From Alphaproteobacteria bacterium HGW-Alphaproteobacteria-6 (GTDB lineage: Bacteria > Pseudomonadota > Alphaproteobacteria > Rhodobacterales > Rhodobacteraceae), in contig PHEC01000033.1 in the NCBI GenBank assembly GCA_002841115.1, positions 1-44,975 of the forward strand: DNA of 44,975 nucleotides. The letters run 5' to 3'. The first letter of the stretch is position 1. The number at the start of each line of letters is the position of its first letter. The position numbers and the translations under genes were made by a program. Positions 4,037 through 40,095 of the stretch are shown piece by piece. The notes below the pieces were generated by a model. That model ran no database searches and had not been told where the DNA came from. It worked only from the letters and a program-made list of their open reading frames with translations.

Positions 4037-5028
4037 GCCGCGACCCGTCCCGAAACCATCCGCCGCGCGGTATCGGCAATCAGCCGCACCCCCGGAACCG
4101 AGCCGGCCTCGAGCGTCGGCGAAACCGAGATCGGGATATCCTCGCCCGCGACGCGAACCACCGGGTCTTCGAGGAAATCGAAGCATTCCTCGCTGATCCG
4201 CGCCGACAGTTCGGCCGCCACGCCGGCGGTCATCGCGCCTTCCGACACCACCATCGCGCGGCCCACCCTTTCGACATGCTCGCGGATCGGCTCGAAATCC
4301 AGCGGGTTCAGGGTGCGCAGGTCGATGACGGTGGCCTCGATCCCCTCGGCGGCCAGCTTTCCGGCCGCATCCATCACATGATGCAACTGCCGCGAATAGG
4401 TGACGATCACCAGATCCTTGCCGGTGCGCCGCACCGCCGACCGGCCCCAGGGCAGCGGCGGGACATCCAGGTCGACCGTCTCCTTCATCGTGTAAAGCGC
4501 CTTGTGCTCGATGAAGACCACCGGGTCGGGTCGGGTCAGCGCCTGGCGCAGGAGGTGATAGGCATCGGCCACCGTGGCCGGCATCGCCAGCCGCAGGCCG
4601 GGGGTGTGCATCACATAGGCCTCAAGGCTCTGGCTGTGCTGGGCGCCGGCCGACCGCCCGGTGCCGCCCTGCGTGCGAAGCACCATCGGCACGCCGATCT
4701 GGCCGCCGAACATGTAGCGGATCTTGGCGGCCTGATTGCCCAGCTGATCCATCGTCATGCCGATGAAATCGACATACATCAGCTCGGCCACCGGTCGCAG
4801 CCCGGCCATCGCCGCGCCCACCGCGGCGCCGACGATCGCCGGCTCGGAGATCGGGGTGTCGATCACCCGTTCGGCCCCGAACTCCTTGATCAGGTCCTTC
4901 GTCACCGCATAGGCGCCGCCATAGCGCCCGACCTCTTCGCCGATGATCACCACATCGGGGTTTTCGCGCATCGCATTGATCAGCGCCTGACGCAGCGCGT
5001 CGCGGTAGGTGAGTTCCTGAAGTGCCAT
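4033..5028 (-). CDS. acoB: TPP-dependent dehydrogenase E1 beta subunit (AcoB-like)
   Basis: 331 aa; TYRDALRQALINAMRENPDVVIIGEEVGRYGGAY, DTPISEPAIVG. Confidence 0.92.
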   Translation of the reverse strand: MALQELTYRDALRQALINAMRENPDVVIIGEEVGRYGGAYAVTKDLIKEFGAERVIDTPISEPAIVGAAVGAAMAGLRPVAELMYVDFIGMTMDQLGNQAAKIRYMFGGQIGVPMVLRTQGGTGRSAGAQHSQSLEAYVMHTPGLRLAMPATVADAYHLLRQALTRPDPVVFIEHKALYTMKETVDLDVPPLPWGRSAVRRTGKDLVIVTYSRQLHHVMDAAGKLAAEGIEATVIDLRTLNPLDFEPIREHVERVGRAMVVSEGAMTAGVAAELSARISEECFDFLEDPVVRVAGEDIPISVSPTLEAGSVPGVRLIADTARRMVSGRVAA

Positions 5029-28112: not shown

Positions 28113-28807
28113 AGGATCAGGCCCGGATCGACGAGGCGCGCCCGATCACCCTGGCGCGCGAGCGTTTCAACACCATCTACCGCGCCCTGCGCGACCGGAT
28201 CTGCCTGCTCGACTACAAGCCGGGAACCCGGCTTGGCGAAGAGGAACTGGCGCGCGAATTCGGCGTGTCGCGCACCCCGCTGCGCCGGGTCCTGTCGCGG
28301 CTCGAGGCCGAGGGGCTGGTCGAAAGCCGGCACGGCGTCGGCACCTTCGTCACCACCGCGGAACTGGCCGACCTGATCCAGACCTACCGGCTCAGGATGG
28401 AACTGGCGCCGCTGATCGGCCGGCTGGACCCGATCGCGCCGGATCGCGCGGTGCTGGAGCGGATCCGCGCGCTGATCGCCGATTGCGATCCCGCCCGCCT
28501 GGCCGCCGACCCCGGCTATTTCGCCCGGATGAACATGGTCTTCTTCCAGCAGGTCGCCGGGATGATCGGCAACCAGCCGCTGCGCGAGATCACCGAGCGG
28601 CTATACTACCTGACCCATCGCATCTGGCTGACCTTCATGCCCAAGCTCGATCTTGGTGCCGAGGTCGAGGCCTTCCGCCGCGAGATGGCCGACACGCTGA
28701 GCGCGATGGAGATCGGCGACCTGGAAACCGTCGGCTTCATCCGGCGCAACCACATCTCGATGTGCCTGCGCCGGATATCGCTCTTCGCCCGCAAGGACCG
28801 GTCATGA
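28109..28807 (+). CDS. GntR family transcriptional regulator (FCD domain)
   Basis: NTIYRALRDRICLLDYKPGTRLGEEELAREFGVSRTPLRRVLSRLEAEGLVESRHGVGTFV; overlaps the ehuA stop. Confidence 0.92.
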   Translation: MKDQARIDEARPITLARERFNTIYRALRDRICLLDYKPGTRLGEEELAREFGVSRTPLRRVLSRLEAEGLVESRHGVGTFVTTAELADLIQTYRLRMELAPLIGRLDPIAPDRAVLERIRALIADCDPARLAADPGYFARMNMVFFQQVAGMIGNQPLREITERLYYLTHRIWLTFMPKLDLGAEVEAFRREMADTLSAMEIGDLETVGFIRRNHISMCLRRISLFARKDRS

Positions 28808-29799
28808 GGCCCTCGCCGGTCGCCGCCACCGTCGATTTCGATGCCGACGGCGTCCAGCACGGCTTCCTGCGCCTGCCCTACAGCCGCGACGATTCGGCCT
28901 GGGGGTCGGTGATGATCCCGGTCGCCGTGGTCCGCAACGGCCCGGGGCCGACAGCACTTCTGACCGGGGCCAACCATGGCGACGAATACGAAGGCCCGAT
29001 CGCGCTTTACGACCTGGCGCGCAGCCTTGCGCCAAAGGCGATCGCCGGCCGGGTGATCATCGTGCCGGCAATGAACCAGCCGGCCTTCGCCGCCGGCACC
29101 CGGACCTCGCCGATCGACCGCGGCAACCTGAACCGCAGCTTTCCCGGCCGCCCCGACGGCACGGTGACCGAAAAGATCGCCGATTATTTCCAGCGCGTCC
29201 TTCTGCCGATGGCCGATGTGGTGCTGGATTTCCATTCCGGCGGCAGGACGCTGGATTTCCTGCCCTTCTGCGCCGCCCATGTGCTGGAGGACAAGCGCCA
29301 GGAGGCGCGCGCCTTCGATCTGGTCCGTGCCTTCGGCGCGCCCTACAGCGTGCGGATGCGCGAGATCGACGCCGTCGGCATGTATGACACCGCCGCCGAG
29401 GCGATGGGCAAGGTCTTCGTCACCACCGAGCTCGGCGGTGGCGGCACCGCTTCGGCGCGGACCGCCGGGATCGCCATTCGCGGCTGCCACAATTTCCTGG
29501 TCGCGGCCGGCATCCTGAAGGCAAGGCCGCAGCCGCAGCCGACGCAATGGCTGGACATGCCCGACGCCGACTGCTTCACCTTTGCCGAGGACGGCGGGAT
29601 GATCCGGTTCCTTGTCGATCTCGGCGACCGGGTCGACCGCAGCCAGACCGTCGCGCTGATCTATCCGCCGGGCCGCACCGGGCTGGATCCGGCGCCGGTC
29701 CTGGCGCGGCGGCCGGGCCTGCTGACCGCGCGCCACTTTCCCGGCCTGATCCGGCCCGGCGACTGCGCCGCGGTGATCGCCGACGAGGTCGCGGCCTAA
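28804..29799 (+). CDS. eutE: Succinylglutamate desuccinylase/aspartoacylase family deacetylase (EutE/DoeB-like)
   Basis: 331 aa; LLTGANHGDEYEGPIAL, NLNRSFPG, VLDFHSGGRTLDFLPF, TTELGGGGTAS. Confidence 0.85.
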   Translation: MRPSPVAATVDFDADGVQHGFLRLPYSRDDSAWGSVMIPVAVVRNGPGPTALLTGANHGDEYEGPIALYDLARSLAPKAIAGRVIIVPAMNQPAFAAGTRTSPIDRGNLNRSFPGRPDGTVTEKIADYFQRVLLPMADVVLDFHSGGRTLDFLPFCAAHVLEDKRQEARAFDLVRAFGAPYSVRMREIDAVGMYDTAAEAMGKVFVTTELGGGGTASARTAGIAIRGCHNFLVAAGILKARPQPQPTQWLDMPDADCFTFAEDGGMIRFLVDLGDRVDRSQTVALIYPPGRTGLDPAPVLARRPGLLTARHFPGLIRPGDCAAVIADEVAA

Positions 29800-30898: not shown

Positions 30899-32053
30899 TT
30901 GCTGGACTTCACGCATAATCCCTGGATGGTTGCGGCCTCTTTCGTCGTCGCGTTCTTTGCCGGCTTCAGCGGGCTGTCGCTGATGCAGGGCGCCTCGGGG
31001 CTGGCGCCATCGCAACGCAAGCTGCTGGTGGCGGTGGCCGCGATCGTGCTCGGCAGCGGCATCTGGTCGATGCATTTTGTCGCCATGCTCGGCCTGCGGC
31101 TGCCAATTCCGTTCTACTACGACGGCCTGATCACGCTGATCTCGGCGCTGGTGGCGATCCTGATGGTCGGGCTGGCGCTGCTGATGCTGCATTTCGCCAG
31201 CCGCAGCCCGGTGATGATCACCGCCGCGGGCTGCGTCGTCGGGGCCGGCATCGTGCTGATGCACTATATCGGCATGCTCGGGATGAAGCTGTGCGGCCCG
31301 GTGTTCTCGCCCCTCGGGGTCGGCCTCGCCCTGGGTGCGGCGCTCGGCCTGTCCAGCCTTGCCGTCTGGGTCGCCTATGGCGCCCGGACACGGGGCAACA
31401 TCCTGCTGGGAACCGTCTGTTTCGCCGGTGCGGTCGTCACGGTGCATTTCATCGCGATGGCCGGCACATCGTTCTACGCCGTCGATGACATGACCGCGGC
31501 CGGGCCGCTGCTGGGCAATTCCGCCCTGGCGATGATCGTGGCCCTGTCTTCCTTCGTGATCAGCGGTGCGTCGCTTCTCAGCGGGGTATCCTTTTTCGGC
31601 GCCTCCGGGGCCGCCGCAGCGCAGACGCCCCGCCCCGCGGCCGCCGCCGCCCCGCCAGCCTCCGCCGCCCCGCCAGCCTCCGCCACCCTGCCGGCCTCCG
31701 CCGACCCGGTGCCCGACAGGCCCTCGCCGGTGCCCTATGAAAAGGACGGCCGCACGCTTTTTGCCGACGCCGCGACGATTGCCGCCGTCCGGGCCGAGGG
31801 CCATTACACCGTGCTTTACCGCGGCACCGAAAAGCTGTTCTGCCCCTGGTCGATCTCGGTCGCCTCGGCCCGTCTCGGGACAGGCCGGTTCATCCGCGTC
31901 CACCGCTCCTATCTGATCAATCCCGCCCATGTCAGCGCATTCCAGCGCACCAAGGATACCGGCACCTGCTTTTTCGCCGGCGTCGAGTCGCTGACACAAG
32001 TGCCGGTCAGCCGCTCGCGTCTGGCCGACCTGCGCCGGGCGCTTGGCGTCTGA
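30899..32053 (+). CDS. coxC: MHYT sensor domain plus LytTR DNA-binding domain regulator (CoxC/CoxH-like)
   Basis: 384 aa, TTG start; MHFVAM, MHYIGM and VHFIAM motifs in TM helices; C-terminal FIRVHRSYLINPAHVSAF; directly upstream of coxMSL. Confidence 0.85.
   Translation: MLDFTHNPWMVAASFVVAFFAGFSGLSLMQGASGLAPSQRKLLVAVAAIVLGSGIWSMHFVAMLGLRLPIPFYYDGLITLISALVAILMVGLALLMLHFASRSPVMITAAGCVVGAGIVLMHYIGMLGMKLCGPVFSPLGVGLALGAALGLSSLAVWVAYGARTRGNILLGTVCFAGAVVTVHFIAMAGTSFYAVDDMTAAGPLLGNSALAMIVALSSFVISGASLLSGVSFFGASGAAAAQTPRPAAAAAPPASAAPPASATLPASADPVPDRPSPVPYEKDGRTLFADAATIAAVRAEGHYTVLYRGTEKLFCPWSISVASARLGTGRFIRVHRSYLINPAHVSAFQRTKDTGTCFFAGVESLTQVPVSRSRLADLRRALGV
31646..31699 (+). repeat. In-frame 18-bp tandem repeat, 3 units, encoding the AAPPAS/ATLPAS linker
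   Basis: GCCGCCCCGCCAGCCTCC x2 followed by GCCACCCTGCCGGCCTCC. Confidence 0.8.
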
Positions 32054-32055
32054 CA

Positions 32056-32091
32056 TCGCATTTCGTGCAGCGCAGTCGCATCCCGTGCAGC
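32056..32091 (+). promoter_or_regulatory. Candidate LytTR-regulator binding site upstream of coxM (direct repeat)
   Basis: TCGCATTTCGTGCAGC (32056-32071) and TCGCATCCCGTGCAGC (32076-32091), period 20 bp. Confidence 0.65.
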
Positions 32092-32189
32092 AAGGCGCGG
32101 CATTCGCCAGCGCGCGGTTTGCGGCACGGGGCGCTTTGCTAGGATCGGCCCGGGAGGTGCGTGAACCGCGCCGCAGGGAGGACACCATC

Positions 32190-33023
32190 ATGATACCAGC
32201 CGGGTTCGAGTATCATCGGCCGGCCGATCTGGCGTCGGCGATCGGCCTTCTTCAGGACCATGGCGACGAGGCGCGCGTCGTCGCCGGCGGGCACAGCCTG
32301 ATCCCGATGATGAAGCTGCGCATGACCGACCTCGGCCACCTTGTCGACCTGCAGGATATCGGCGAGCTGAGGGGCATCGCCATCGGCGCCGGCCATGTCA
32401 CCATCGGCGCCATGACCTCGCAACACGATCTGATCGCCGATGACCGGCTGGCCGCGGTGCTGCCGATCATCCGCGAGGCATCGCTGCAGATCGCCGACCC
32501 GCAGGTGCGCTACATGGGCACGATCGGCGGCAATGTCGCCAACGGCGATCCCGGCAACGACATGCCCGGCCTGATGCAATGCCTGAACGCAAGCTATGAT
32601 CTGGCCGGCCCGGACGGCACCCGCCAGGTCGCGGCCCGCGGCTTTTACCAGGCCGCCTATTTCACCGCCCGCGAGGATGACGAGATCCTGACCCGCATCG
32701 TCATCCCGGTCCCGGCGGCCGGCACCGGCCATGCCTATGTCAAGCAGAAGCGCAAGATCGGCGATTATGCCACCGCCGCGGCGGCGGTGCTGGTCGGCAC
32801 GACTTCGGCCTCGGTCGCGATGACCAACCTTTCCGATACGCCGGTCTGGTCCGAGGCGGCGGGCAAGGCCCTTGCCGCCGGCGACACCGAGGGCTGCGTT
32901 GCCGCGATACTTGCCGCGATCGACCCGCAGGAAGACATGCGCGGCCCGGTCGAGTTCAAGAGACACGTCGCCGCGGTGGTTCTGCGCCGCGCCATCGACA
33001 GCGCCCTGGCGCGCCGGACATGA
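32190..33023 (+). CDS. coxM: Carbon monoxide dehydrogenase medium (FAD) subunit
   Basis: 277 aa; [13 protein letters not shown] and [14 protein letters not shown] motifs. Confidence 0.93.
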
Positions 33024-33036
33024 GGGAGGCCAGGTC

Positions 33037-33531
33037 ATGAGCAAGATGCACATCACGCTGACCGTCAACGGAACCGCGGTCGAGGGGCTTGCCGAACCGC
33101 GCACGCTTCTGATCCATTTCCTGCGCGAGACCCTGAGGATCACCGGCCCCCATATCGGCTGCGAGACCAGCCATTGTGGCGCCTGCACCATCGACATGAA
33201 CGGCAAGTCGGTGAAATCCTGCACCGTCTTCGTCGGCCAGGCCCAGGGCGCCGAGATCACCACCGTCGAGGGGCTGGTCAATGCCGACGGCTCGCTTGGC
33301 GTCATCCAGGAGAACTTCCGCGAGCACCACGGGCTGCAATGCGGCTTCTGCACGCCGGGCATGATCACCCGCGCGCATCGCTTCTTGCAGGAAAACCCCG
33401 CGCCGACCGAGGCTGAGGTGCGCTTCGGCATGGCCGGCAACCTCTGCCGCTGCACCGGATACCAGAACATCGTCAAAGCCATTCTGGCGTCGGCCGCCCA
33501 GCTGAACGCCGCCAAGGAGGCCGCGGAATGA
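33037..33531 (+). CDS. coxS: Carbon monoxide dehydrogenase small (2x[2Fe-2S]) subunit
   Basis: [21 protein letters not shown] and [18 protein letters not shown]. Confidence 0.95.
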
Positions 33532-35948
33532 ACGACCAGTCGAACACCCCCGAAGACCGCAGCACCCGGCTGAAAGGCATGGGCTGCTCGCGCAAGCGCG
33601 TCGAGGACGTGCGCTTTACCCAGGGCAAGGGCAACTATGTCGACGACATCAGGATGGACGGCATGCTGTTCGGCGATTTCGTCCGCTCGCCCTATGCCCA
33701 TGCCCGCGTGGTCTCGATCGACAGCGCGGCGGCGATGAAGGTGCCCGGCGTGCTGGCGGTCATCACCGCCAAGGAACTGGAGCCGCTCGGCCTGCACTGG
33801 ATGCCGACACTTGCCGGTGACAAGCAGATGGTGCTGGCCGATGGCAAGGTCCTGTTCCAGGGCCAGGAGGTCGCCTTCGTCGTCGCCACCGACCGCTATG
33901 CCGCATCCGACGGTGTCGCCGCGGTCGAGGTGGAATACGATGAGTTGCCGGTCGTCGTCGATCCCTTCAAGGCGCTTGAACCCGATGCACCGGTGCTGCG
34001 CGAGGATCTTGCCGGCCAGACGACCGGCGCGCATGGCCCCCGCCGCCATCACAACCACATCTTCACCTGGGAGGTGGGCGACAAGGAGGCCACCGAGGCG
34101 GTTCTGGCCGGCGCCGATGTCGTCGCCGAAGAGATGGTCTATTACCACCGCACCCATCCCAGCCCGCTGGAGACCTGCGGCTGCGTCGCCTCGATGGACA
34201 AGGTGAACGGCAAGCTGACGGTCTGGGGCACCTTTCAGGCGCCGCATGCGGTGCGCACGGTGGCCTCGCTGATATCAGGAATAGCCGAGCACAACATCCG
34301 AATCATCTCGCCCGATATCGGCGGCGGGTTCGGCAACAAGGTCGGCGTCTACCCGGGCTATATCTGCGCGATCGTCGCCTCGATCGTCACCGGCAAGCCG
34401 GTCAAGTGGGTCGAAAGCCGGATGGACAACCTGATGGCCACCGCCTTTGCCCGCGACTACTGGATGAAGGGCCGGATCGCCGCCACCAAGGCCGGCAAGA
34501 TCACCGGCCTCTGGTGTCACACCACCGCCGACCACGGCGGGTTTGACGCCTGCGCCGACCCCTCGAAATTCCCGGCCGGGTTCATGAACATCTGCACCGG
34601 CAGCTACGACATTCCGGTCGCCTATCTGGCGGTCGACGGTGTCTATACCAACAAGGCGCCAGGCGGCGTGGCCTATCGCTGTTCGTTCCGGGTGACGGAG
34701 GCCGCCTATTTCATCGAGCGGATGATCGAGGTGCTGGCGATCAGGCTGGGCATGGACGCCGCCGAACTGCGCCGGATCAACTTCATCCGCAAGGACCAGT
34801 TTCCCTATCAGTCGGCGCTCGGCTGGGAATACGATTCCGGCGATTATCACACCGCCTGGGACAAGGCGCTGAAGGCGGTCGGCTACGACGCCTTGCGCGC
34901 CGAACAGGCGCAGCGGCTCGCCGACTTCAAGGCAGGCAAGACCCGCCGGCTGATCGGCATCGGGCTGGCGCATTTCACCGAGATCGTCGGCGCCGGGCCA
35001 GTCAAGAACTGCGACATCCTCGGGCTTGGCATGTTCGACAGTTGCGAGATCCGCATCCATCCGACCGGATCGGCGATCGCGCGGCTTGGCACCATCAGCC
35101 AGGGCCAGGGCCACGCCACGACCTTCGCCCAGATCATCGCCAGCGAGATCGGCATCCCCGCCGACGACATCACGCTGGAAGAGGGCGACACCGATACCGC
35201 CCCCTACGGACTTGGCACCTACGGCTCGCGTTCGACGCCGGTCGCCGGGGCCGCGACGGCGATGGCCGCGCGCAAGATCCGCGCCAAGGCGCAGATGATC
35301 GCGGCCTACCTTCTGGAAGTCCACGACGACGACGTGGAATTCGATGTCGACCGTTTTGCCGTCAAGGGCGCACCCGAGCGGTTCAAGACGATGAAGGAGA
35401 TCGCCTTCGCCGCCTACAACCAGGCCATTCCGGGGCTGGAGCCGGGGCTGGAGGCGGTCAGCTACTATGACCCGCCCAACATGACCTATCCCTTCGGCGC
35501 CTATATCTGCGTGATGGAGATCGACGTCGACACCGGCGAACACGAGATCCGCATGTTCTACGCGCTCGACGATTGCGGCACCCGGATCAACCCGATGATC
35601 ATCGAGGGCCAGGTCCATGGCGGCGCCACCGAAGGCTATGCCATCGCGATGGGCCAGGAGATCGCCTATGACGAGATGGGCAACCACAAGACCGCGACGC
35701 TGATGGATTTCTTCATCCCGACATCGTGGGAGACGCCGCACTACACCACCGACCACACGGTCACCCCCAGCCCGCATCACCCGATCGGCGCCAAGGGTGT
35801 GGGTGAAAGCCCGAATGTCGGCTCGGTCCCGGCCTTCTCGAACGCGGTGCATGATGCTTTCCGGCCGTTCGGCCTTGTCCACAGTCACATGCCGCATGAT
35901 CACTGGCGGGTCTGGAAGATCGCCCGTGATCTTGGCCTGCACGGCTAG
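33528..35948 (+). CDS. coxL: Form I aerobic carbon monoxide dehydrogenase large (Mo-Cu) subunit
   Basis: 806 aa; active-site loop AYRCSFR at codons 382-388 (34671-34691), the form I signature; [10 protein letters not shown]. Confidence 0.95.
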
Positions 35949-38903: not shown

Positions 38904-39000
38904 CGTTCATTCGCCTTCACACACCCCACTCTGACCTTTTGATTTAGCATGTCCGAGTCGCGCAAAACCGGTTCCCACTTTTGCGCGACATGCCCTAGCC
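38904..39000. repeat. Intergenic palindromic repeat R1, copy B, at the convergent coxF/luxR junction
   Basis: 86 of 97 positions identical to 1..97; its CTAG overlaps the stop codon of the 38995..39573 gene. Confidence 0.85.
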
Positions 39001-39573
39001 GACCCTGGCCAGGGGCGGGGACGGCGCCGGGGCCGCGTCCATCAGATCCTCGATGAACAGGCTGAGCAGTTGCGGCCGGCCACTGACCCCGGCCTTGCGG
39101 AAGATCGCATTGGTCTGCGCCTTGACCGTGCCTTCCGAGGTGTTGCGCAATCCGGCGATCTCGGCGGTGCTCATCCCCTTGATCGCGAAAAGCGCCACAT
39201 CGGCTTCGGCCGGGGTCAGGCCCCATTCGCCGAAGCGTTCCCGCAAGAGGTCCATGAAGGCCCCCGAGGCACGGCGCAGCTTTTCCTCGGCCTGGCGTTG
39301 ATCGCGCATCGACCGCGCCAGCGCCAGCCCGCCCGAGACGATGCCGAGGACAAGGCCCAGCGCCGCGCCCAGTTCGATGTATTCGCGCAATTGCCAGTTG
39401 ATCGGCGGGATGTAGATGCCGAGGACCGAAAGCAGGATGTCGGAAATGAAGAAGAAGGCGCAAAGCACCTGAACCGCCAGTGTGACCAGAACAAAAACCT
39501 TCAGCCTCACGCCCCTTCCCGCCCCGGTTGCAGCCCCGGTGGCAGCCCGGCGGGCGAGACGGTCTTCACCCAA
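38995..39573 (-). CDS. Membrane-anchored LuxR-type HTH regulator
   Basis: 192 aa; two N-terminal hydrophobic segments; C-terminal LTPAEADVALFAIKGMSTAEIAGLRNTSEGTVKAQTNAIFRKAGVSGRPQLLSLF. Confidence 0.88.
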   Translation of the reverse strand: MGEDRLARRAATGAATGAGRGVRLKVFVLVTLAVQVLCAFFFISDILLSVLGIYIPPINWQLREYIELGAALGLVLGIVSGGLALARSMRDQRQAEEKLRRASGAFMDLLRERFGEWGLTPAEADVALFAIKGMSTAEIAGLRNTSEGTVKAQTNAIFRKAGVSGRPQLLSLFIEDLMDAAPAPSPPLARVG

Positions 39574-39576
39574 GGG

Positions 39577-39981
39577 TCAATCGTCATCGTCATCATCCCG
39601 GTCATCGTCGTCATCGTCATCGTCATCGCCCGAGCCCGAGCCAGAGCCAGAGCCAGAGCCACCGGATCCCGATCCGCCCGAGGCCGAATGGTCGGTCCCG
39701 CCATCATCGCCGATTGCGATGACAACGCTACTGCCATCGAGCGGGCGCCGCAGATCGCGCAGAATCTCGCCGTTGCGCGGGTCAAGCACGATCTCGCGCC
39801 GATAGCGACTGCTTGTGCCGACGATGCGCATCCGGCCCAGCAGGGTGCGGCTGACGGTCACCTCGGCATAGCCCATGCGCTTGAGTTGCGCGGCAACCTG
39901 ATCACCCGGACCCTGCGCCATGGCAGGCCCGCCCAGAAGGATCACCGCAAGCATCGAATAAAGGACCGTCCGCCGTCGCAT
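39577..39981 (-). CDS. Secreted PepSY-like protein with Ser-Gly linker and poly-Asp C-terminus
   Basis: Signal peptide MRRRTVLYSMLAVILLGGPAMAQ; RREIVLDPRNGEILRDLRR; GSGSGSGSGDDDDDDDDDRDDDDDD tail. 3 bp upstream of the LuxR gene. Confidence 0.75.
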   Translation of the reverse strand: MRRRTVLYSMLAVILLGGPAMAQGPGDQVAAQLKRMGYAEVTVSRTLLGRMRIVGTSSRYRREIVLDPRNGEILRDLRRPLDGSSVVIAIGDDGGTDHSASGGSGSGGSGSGSGSGSGDDDDDDDDDRDDDDDD

Positions 39982-40095
39982 CCTGACACCTTCCGGGAAA
40001 CCGAATGGCCCCCGGTGACCAGTATCGGTCAGCCCGGGGGCCATCACAAGGGCAAGCCTGCTTGCCCAGGCTTTCATGCCTGACTGCGGATGCGA

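Follow-up and report, generated by a model that had tools for sequence, protein, structure and literature searches.

Which protein reads the pair of direct repeats that lies between coxC and coxM, and does the pair control the cox genes behind it? These bacteria oxidise CO aerobically and are a real sink for it. How this oxidation is controlled has been learnt from very few promoters; to our knowledge, the CoxC protein of Afipia carboxidovorans is the only CoxC that has been characterised. We analysed the repeats in the window (the whole stretch of 44,975 nucleotides), in the genome that contains it and in related cox clusters. The features are listed below, and r2 denotes the start of the repeat 2 core, from which offsets are counted.

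30899 to 32053, forward strand: coxC, with MHYT (PF03707, 1.3e-28) and LytTR (PF04397, 1.7e-14, profile positions 3-97 of 98) domains, the presumed binder
32056 to 32071, forward strand: repeat 1, TCGCATTTCGTGCAGC, with the core CGCATTTCGTGCA at 32057-32069, conserved in 96 of 97 family coxM loci
32076 to 32091, forward strand: repeat 2, TCGCATCCCGTGCAGC, with the core at 32077-32089, starting 20 bp from repeat 1, unique genome-wide with repeat 1 and conserved in the family
32098 to 32110, forward strand: degenerate repeat 3, CGGCATTCGCCAG, sharing TTCG, at the conserved r2+21 position
32119 to 32124, forward strand: TTGCGG, the -35 of the preliminary description, with 15 bp between it and the -10 and without conservation
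32140 to 32145, forward strand: -10-like box TAGGAT, 63 bp after the repeat 2 core start, with position-locked conservation
32176 to 32182, forward strand: Shine-Dalgarno sequence of coxM, GGGAGGA, similar in most relatives
32190 to 33023, forward strand: coxM, CO dehydrogenase medium/FAD subunit (FAD_binding_5, CO_deh_flav_C), first gene of coxMSLDEF

The open reading frame at 30899-32053 encodes an N-terminal MHYT domain and a C-terminal, full LytTR domain at 31736-32050, both Pfam matches being above the cut-off, and it lies beside coxMSL, as expected of CoxC. The MHYT-LytTR protein, which the preliminary description had treated as a separate neighbour of coxC, is therefore CoxC itself. The start of coxM was assigned to the ATG at 32190 and not to the TTG at 32043. 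It is followed by coxS, coxL and, according to the translations of the open reading frames, MoxR-, VWA- and XdhC-like genes, which correspond to coxD, coxE and coxF. CoxC is the sole LytTR protein found in the genome, which is 87% complete, so that a further LytTR gene could be hidden. Among 22 genomes of its genus, this one alone has coxC (region 30899-35948), which suggests a gain of the cox cluster, its frequent loss, or a misbinned contig in a genome of this completeness. Just after the coxF-like gene, the reverse strand encodes a LuxR-type helix-turn-helix membrane protein (38995-39573, from its translation) and, further on, a small secreted-looking protein (39577-40077) that contains GSGSGS and ends in a long tail made up mostly of Asp.

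The coordinates of repeats 1 and 2, their 20-bp period and the identity of 14 out of 16 positions were confirmed as first described, together with their position, which is just past the end of coxC (stop codon at 32051-32053) and ahead of the coxM ATG. Both repeats have the core CGCANNTCGTG. The genome-wide consensus search that the preliminary description had suggested was performed with TCGCATNNCGTGCAGC, and exactly two matches, repeats 1 and 2, were obtained in 3,770,977 bases (3.77 Mb); the reversed TCGCATNNCGTGCAGC, used as a control, gave zero matches across the same genome. The paired two-copy pattern is unique in the 3.77-Mb genome with up to 3 mismatches allowed, and as a dyad of CGCATTTCGTGCA the pair scores 24/26, the runner-up anywhere in the window reaching 17/26. 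A single motif is unremarkable in the 45-kb window, where 29 of 100 shuffles gave at least two matches at 2 mismatches; the case therefore rests on the pair, on its genome-wide uniqueness and on its conservation. The 20-bp period lies within the two helical turns (18-21 bp) expected of CoxC/RcoM-type LytTR operators. Repeat 1 contains TTCGTGCA, an exact match to the published RcoM1 half-site TTCNNGCA, and is the only repeat of the window with the exact published 8-mer. Repeat 2 (CCCGTGCA) has 2 mismatches to this half-site (TTCNNGCA / TTNNNGCN) and departs from the consensus at the TTT core (CGCATCCCGTGCA); repeat 3 is weak. The third element of the preliminary description (cggcATTCGccag, 32098-32110) lies at the conserved r2+21 position, but in the window its sequence is weak.

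In order to examine conservation, coxM upstream regions were taken from the genomes with CoxC relatives, which were found in 100 of 397 family genomes sampled essentially one per genus, and from named plasmids. The CoxC proteins of these relatives are 39 to 69% identical to that of the window. In the first set of 70 loci, the two best CGCATTTCGTGCA copies were 20 bp apart in 39 and 21 bp apart in 30, and the single exception also holds a 20-bp pair; the rest of the coxC-coxM spacer has mostly near-zero information. In the final set, 96 of the 97 family coxM loci score at least 19/26 with two copies at a period of 20 or 21 bp, a score reached by none of 2,910 shuffled spacers. The mean best-match score over the 97 loci rises above background at these two spacings only, and other spacings were rejected. 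Copy 2 starts mostly 104-118 bp upstream of the coxM ATG, and the family consensus TTCGTGCA matches the published half-site. A third repeat is also kept at r2+20/21: a match of at least 5/6 to TTTCGT occurs at r2+17 to r2+25 in 44% of loci, compared with 0-10% in other stretches, although repeat 3 of the window matches only 4/6.

Conservation in related cox clusters, on which the preliminary description had made its proposal depend, was thus observed in 96 of the 97 family loci, and it extends to other alphaproteobacterial families and to Afipia. Clear sites are present in the cox clusters of Bradyrhizobium, Rhizobium and Shinella, and the locus of Ruegeria sp. HKCCD7303, the sole useful relative from a separate contig scan, also carries the dyad. 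A weaker triplet (21-bp spacing, 7.0 bits) occurs in a cox cluster of Paraburkholderia that adjoins a LytTR gene. The loci compared come mostly from one family with a few others, so that shared ancestry contributes to this conservation. Operator and coding sequence overlap in 12 relatives (L036, L059, L061, L063, L064, L068-L073 and L076), where the 3' end of the coxC open reading frame includes repeat 1.

The dyad is associated with both genes. The pattern TCGTGN{9,10}CGCANYTCGTG was matched in 64 of 97 coxC genomes, in 57 directly 3' of coxC, and in 25 of the 300 genomes that lack this gene, which is close to the background of the reversed pattern (about 40 matches in 397 genomes). A match in the genome G115 appears to be accidental: CCA/NUDIX/Hsp33-like genes are close to it, and none of its neighbours is a cox gene. 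In four genomes coxC and coxM are separated (by 3.7 kb, 14 kb, 32 kb or a contig), and in these the dyad is found 98-117 bp upstream of coxM. As the dyad stays with coxM when coxC is elsewhere, the site belongs to coxM and not to the end of coxC. Autoregulation of CoxC through such a dyad was rejected, as neither the window nor the collected related loci showed one upstream of coxC.

The analysis was extended to Afipia, whose CoxC is reported to bind three direct repeats at PcoxB and to need all of them (PMC11347149); the half-site is TTNNNGCN, which is related to the TTCNNGCA of RcoM1. In E. coli this CoxC acts as a repressor of PcoxB, and both repression and binding are relieved by CO through copper; the Afipia fragments described as tested in the consulted sections do not include the coxC-coxM gap (PMC11347149). 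A matrix built from the two strong copies, and trained without Afipia, was scanned over 8.1 kb of the Afipia cox region and detected exactly two strong dyads, the best of 30 shuffles scoring 10.9. One of them, CGCAGTTCATGCG/CGCCGTTGGTGGA at PcoxB (23.1 bits), is the operator for which CoxC binding was experimentally shown (PMC11347149). The other, CGTATTTCGTGCA/TGCTTTTGGTGAC (20.6 bits), lies between coxC and coxM, at 4724-4756 of the locus L033 from pHCG3 of OM5 (upstream region of coxM at about 28,720-28,880 of pHCG3), and is a candidate second CoxC-type dyad. The PcoxB1 mutation, reported there to abolish repression (PMC11347149), changes the invariant G of copy 2, and the matrix score falls from 7.7 to -1.0. 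The published PcoxB repeats TTACCGCC, TTTGGGCA and TTGCGGCA are found at L033 1701, 1730 and 1756, with start-to-start distances of 29 and 26 bp, whereas the matrix places the repeats at 1684, 1705 and 1725 (region 1684-1737), with an even 20-21 bp spacing; the register found here therefore differs from the published one.

The conservation of the dyad, its association with coxC and coxM and the recovery of the Afipia operator give good support to the original idea of a LytTR-type direct-repeat operator for the adjacent MHYT-LytTR protein. We consider it highly probable that the repeats are the CoxC operator at the coxM promoter (PcoxM), leaving the sign of the regulation aside. The site is strong and conserved, it adjoins the predicted promoter of the cox genes, and it very probably serves the CO-sensing membrane regulator encoded next door. 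Binding by the CoxC of the window, its response to CO and its sign are what we infer from these sequence comparisons. Membrane-bound CoxC would sense CO through its MHYT domain, and its LytTR domain would bind the two strong half-sites (core CGCATTTCGTGCA) and the weak third one, which are predicted to share one face of the helix, at intervals of two turns, and to lie immediately before a promoter with TAGGAT at 32140. Binding of CO to the MHYT domain would alter the occupancy of the operator, and transcription of coxMSL would follow CO.

The promoter itself bears on the sign. Expectation-maximisation 3' of the repeats identified a box resembling [CT]AGNCT that is locked in position, 63-65 bp downstream of copy 2, with an A at position 2 in 92% and a T at position 6 in 87%. 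With a tolerance of 2 bp around offset 63, the pattern AnnnT is present in 71% of the loci, versus 7-23% at other offsets. Of the -35/-10 pair proposed in the preliminary description, TAGGAT at 32140 is thereby retained as a -10-like box, but TTGCGG at 32119 is not conserved and was discarded as a -35. No conserved -35 was found in the family loci, where columns -23 to -18 have an information content of at most 0.27, and a search anchored on the -10 gave no conserved hexamer and only a weak TG. Neither was there a match to the sigma-70 consensus (TTGACA-N17-TATAAT) by which an intrinsic promoter would be recognised. The layout of Afipia PcoxB is the same, with a -10-like TATCGT at r2+64. It is not obvious in the Hyphomicrobiales loci L183-L186, and we therefore claim the -10 layout for the main family set only. 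Many relatives have a conserved AGCCAGAA near the predicted transcription start, at about r2+75 to r2+79, which is absent in the window.

By homology with Afipia CoxC, the likeliest mode would be repression without CO and release with CO, to which we give an even chance. Nearly as likely, the same protein could act at the same operator as a CO-dependent activator that recruits RNA polymerase to a -10-only promoter. The phase-locked -10-like box without a conserved -35 is consistent with activation, as is the distance of about 7-10 bp between the end of the repeats and the would-be -35 position; in positively autoregulated LytTR promoters the repeats lie 4-11 bp, typically 10, upstream of the -35 (PMC6193735). 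A similar layout of three repeats is seen at a betaproteobacterial cox promoter beside an RcoM-like LytTR gene, and PMC11347149 describes RcoM1-type regulators as activating. However, in E. coli PcoxB is repressed by Afipia CoxC, which comes off the DNA when CO is supplied (PMC11347149); this promoter has the same layout, and an activator would need the opposite response to CO. Somewhat lower is the probability we assign to the joint case that the sign is reversed in this family, with a CO-dependent activator at a -35-less coxM promoter, or that the sign measured for Afipia in E. coli fails in the native host.

It is improbable that a different regulator binds the repeats and that CoxC is linked to them by neighbourhood only. 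Four genomes have coxM without coxC: two of them have no dyad, in one the contig is too short, and the fourth (G131) retains a degenerate dyad upstream of coxM (15.8 bits) with no coxC detected, which would fit another binder. G131 has only one other LytTR protein, a short membrane-LytTR protein that on inspection does not resemble RcoM. The incompleteness of the window genome also leaves room for such a regulator, but CoxC is the only LytTR protein found in it, and the motif tracks the presence of coxC and matches both the RcoM1 half-site TTCNNGCA and the CoxC operator demonstrated in Afipia. A structured RNA or leader element in a coxC-coxM transcript, for which the position between two co-directional genes might speak, is very unlikely and was rejected: the site lies upstream of the predicted promoter, the repeat is direct rather than inverted and has helical-turn spacing, and Rfam gave no match apart from one chance hit far below gathering. 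Finally, a duplication by slippage could yield a two-copy repeat with 14 of 16 identities and the window scan alone leaves chance similarity possible, but a functionless repeat is a negligible prospect for a pair unique in 3.77 Mb and kept in 96 of 97 family loci amid otherwise unconserved spacers, and this reading is refuted by the conservation.

An operator of this type is already known from Afipia and RcoM. What is new, as predicted from sequence, is the coxM-proximal site with its conservation, a sharper 13-bp consensus and register, the phase-locked -10-like box and the candidate site in Afipia. For about 100 genera, the conserved site supplies a target gene and a predicted promoter box, together with a 13-bp consensus whose spacing is fixed. 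A second candidate CoxC-type site, directly upstream of coxM, is present in Afipia, the best-studied organism, and the repressor-or-activator question for MHYT-LytTR sensors is now directly testable.

Among the known systems, the HdrRM and BrsRM promoters of Streptococcus mutans also have direct repeats in pairs, separated by 11-12 bp and placed a few bp before the -35 position; they differ in repeat sequence, in belonging to autoregulatory operons and in having a separate membrane inhibitor protein (PMC6193735). The RcoM1 operator of Paraburkholderia xenovorans LB400 is closer, as it serves a LytTR regulator of aerobic CO oxidation and consists of three direct repeats TTCNNGCA with 12-13 bp spacers (PMC11347149), and repeat 1 of the window contains TTCGTGCA. 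RcoM, however, has an N-terminal CO-binding haem domain and is described there as an activator, whereas the regulator of the window is a membrane MHYT sensor. Closest is the CoxC system of Afipia (OM5, formerly Oligotropha). Its published site lies upstream of coxB at the start of the cluster and its half-site TTNNNGCN is in another register, whereas the site of the window lies between coxC and coxM and has only two strong copies. Both systems share an orthologous MHYT-LytTR regulator adjoining coxM and direct repeats that are spaced by about two turns and lie close to a cox promoter, and the Afipia repeats (PMC11347149) were recovered by the family matrix.
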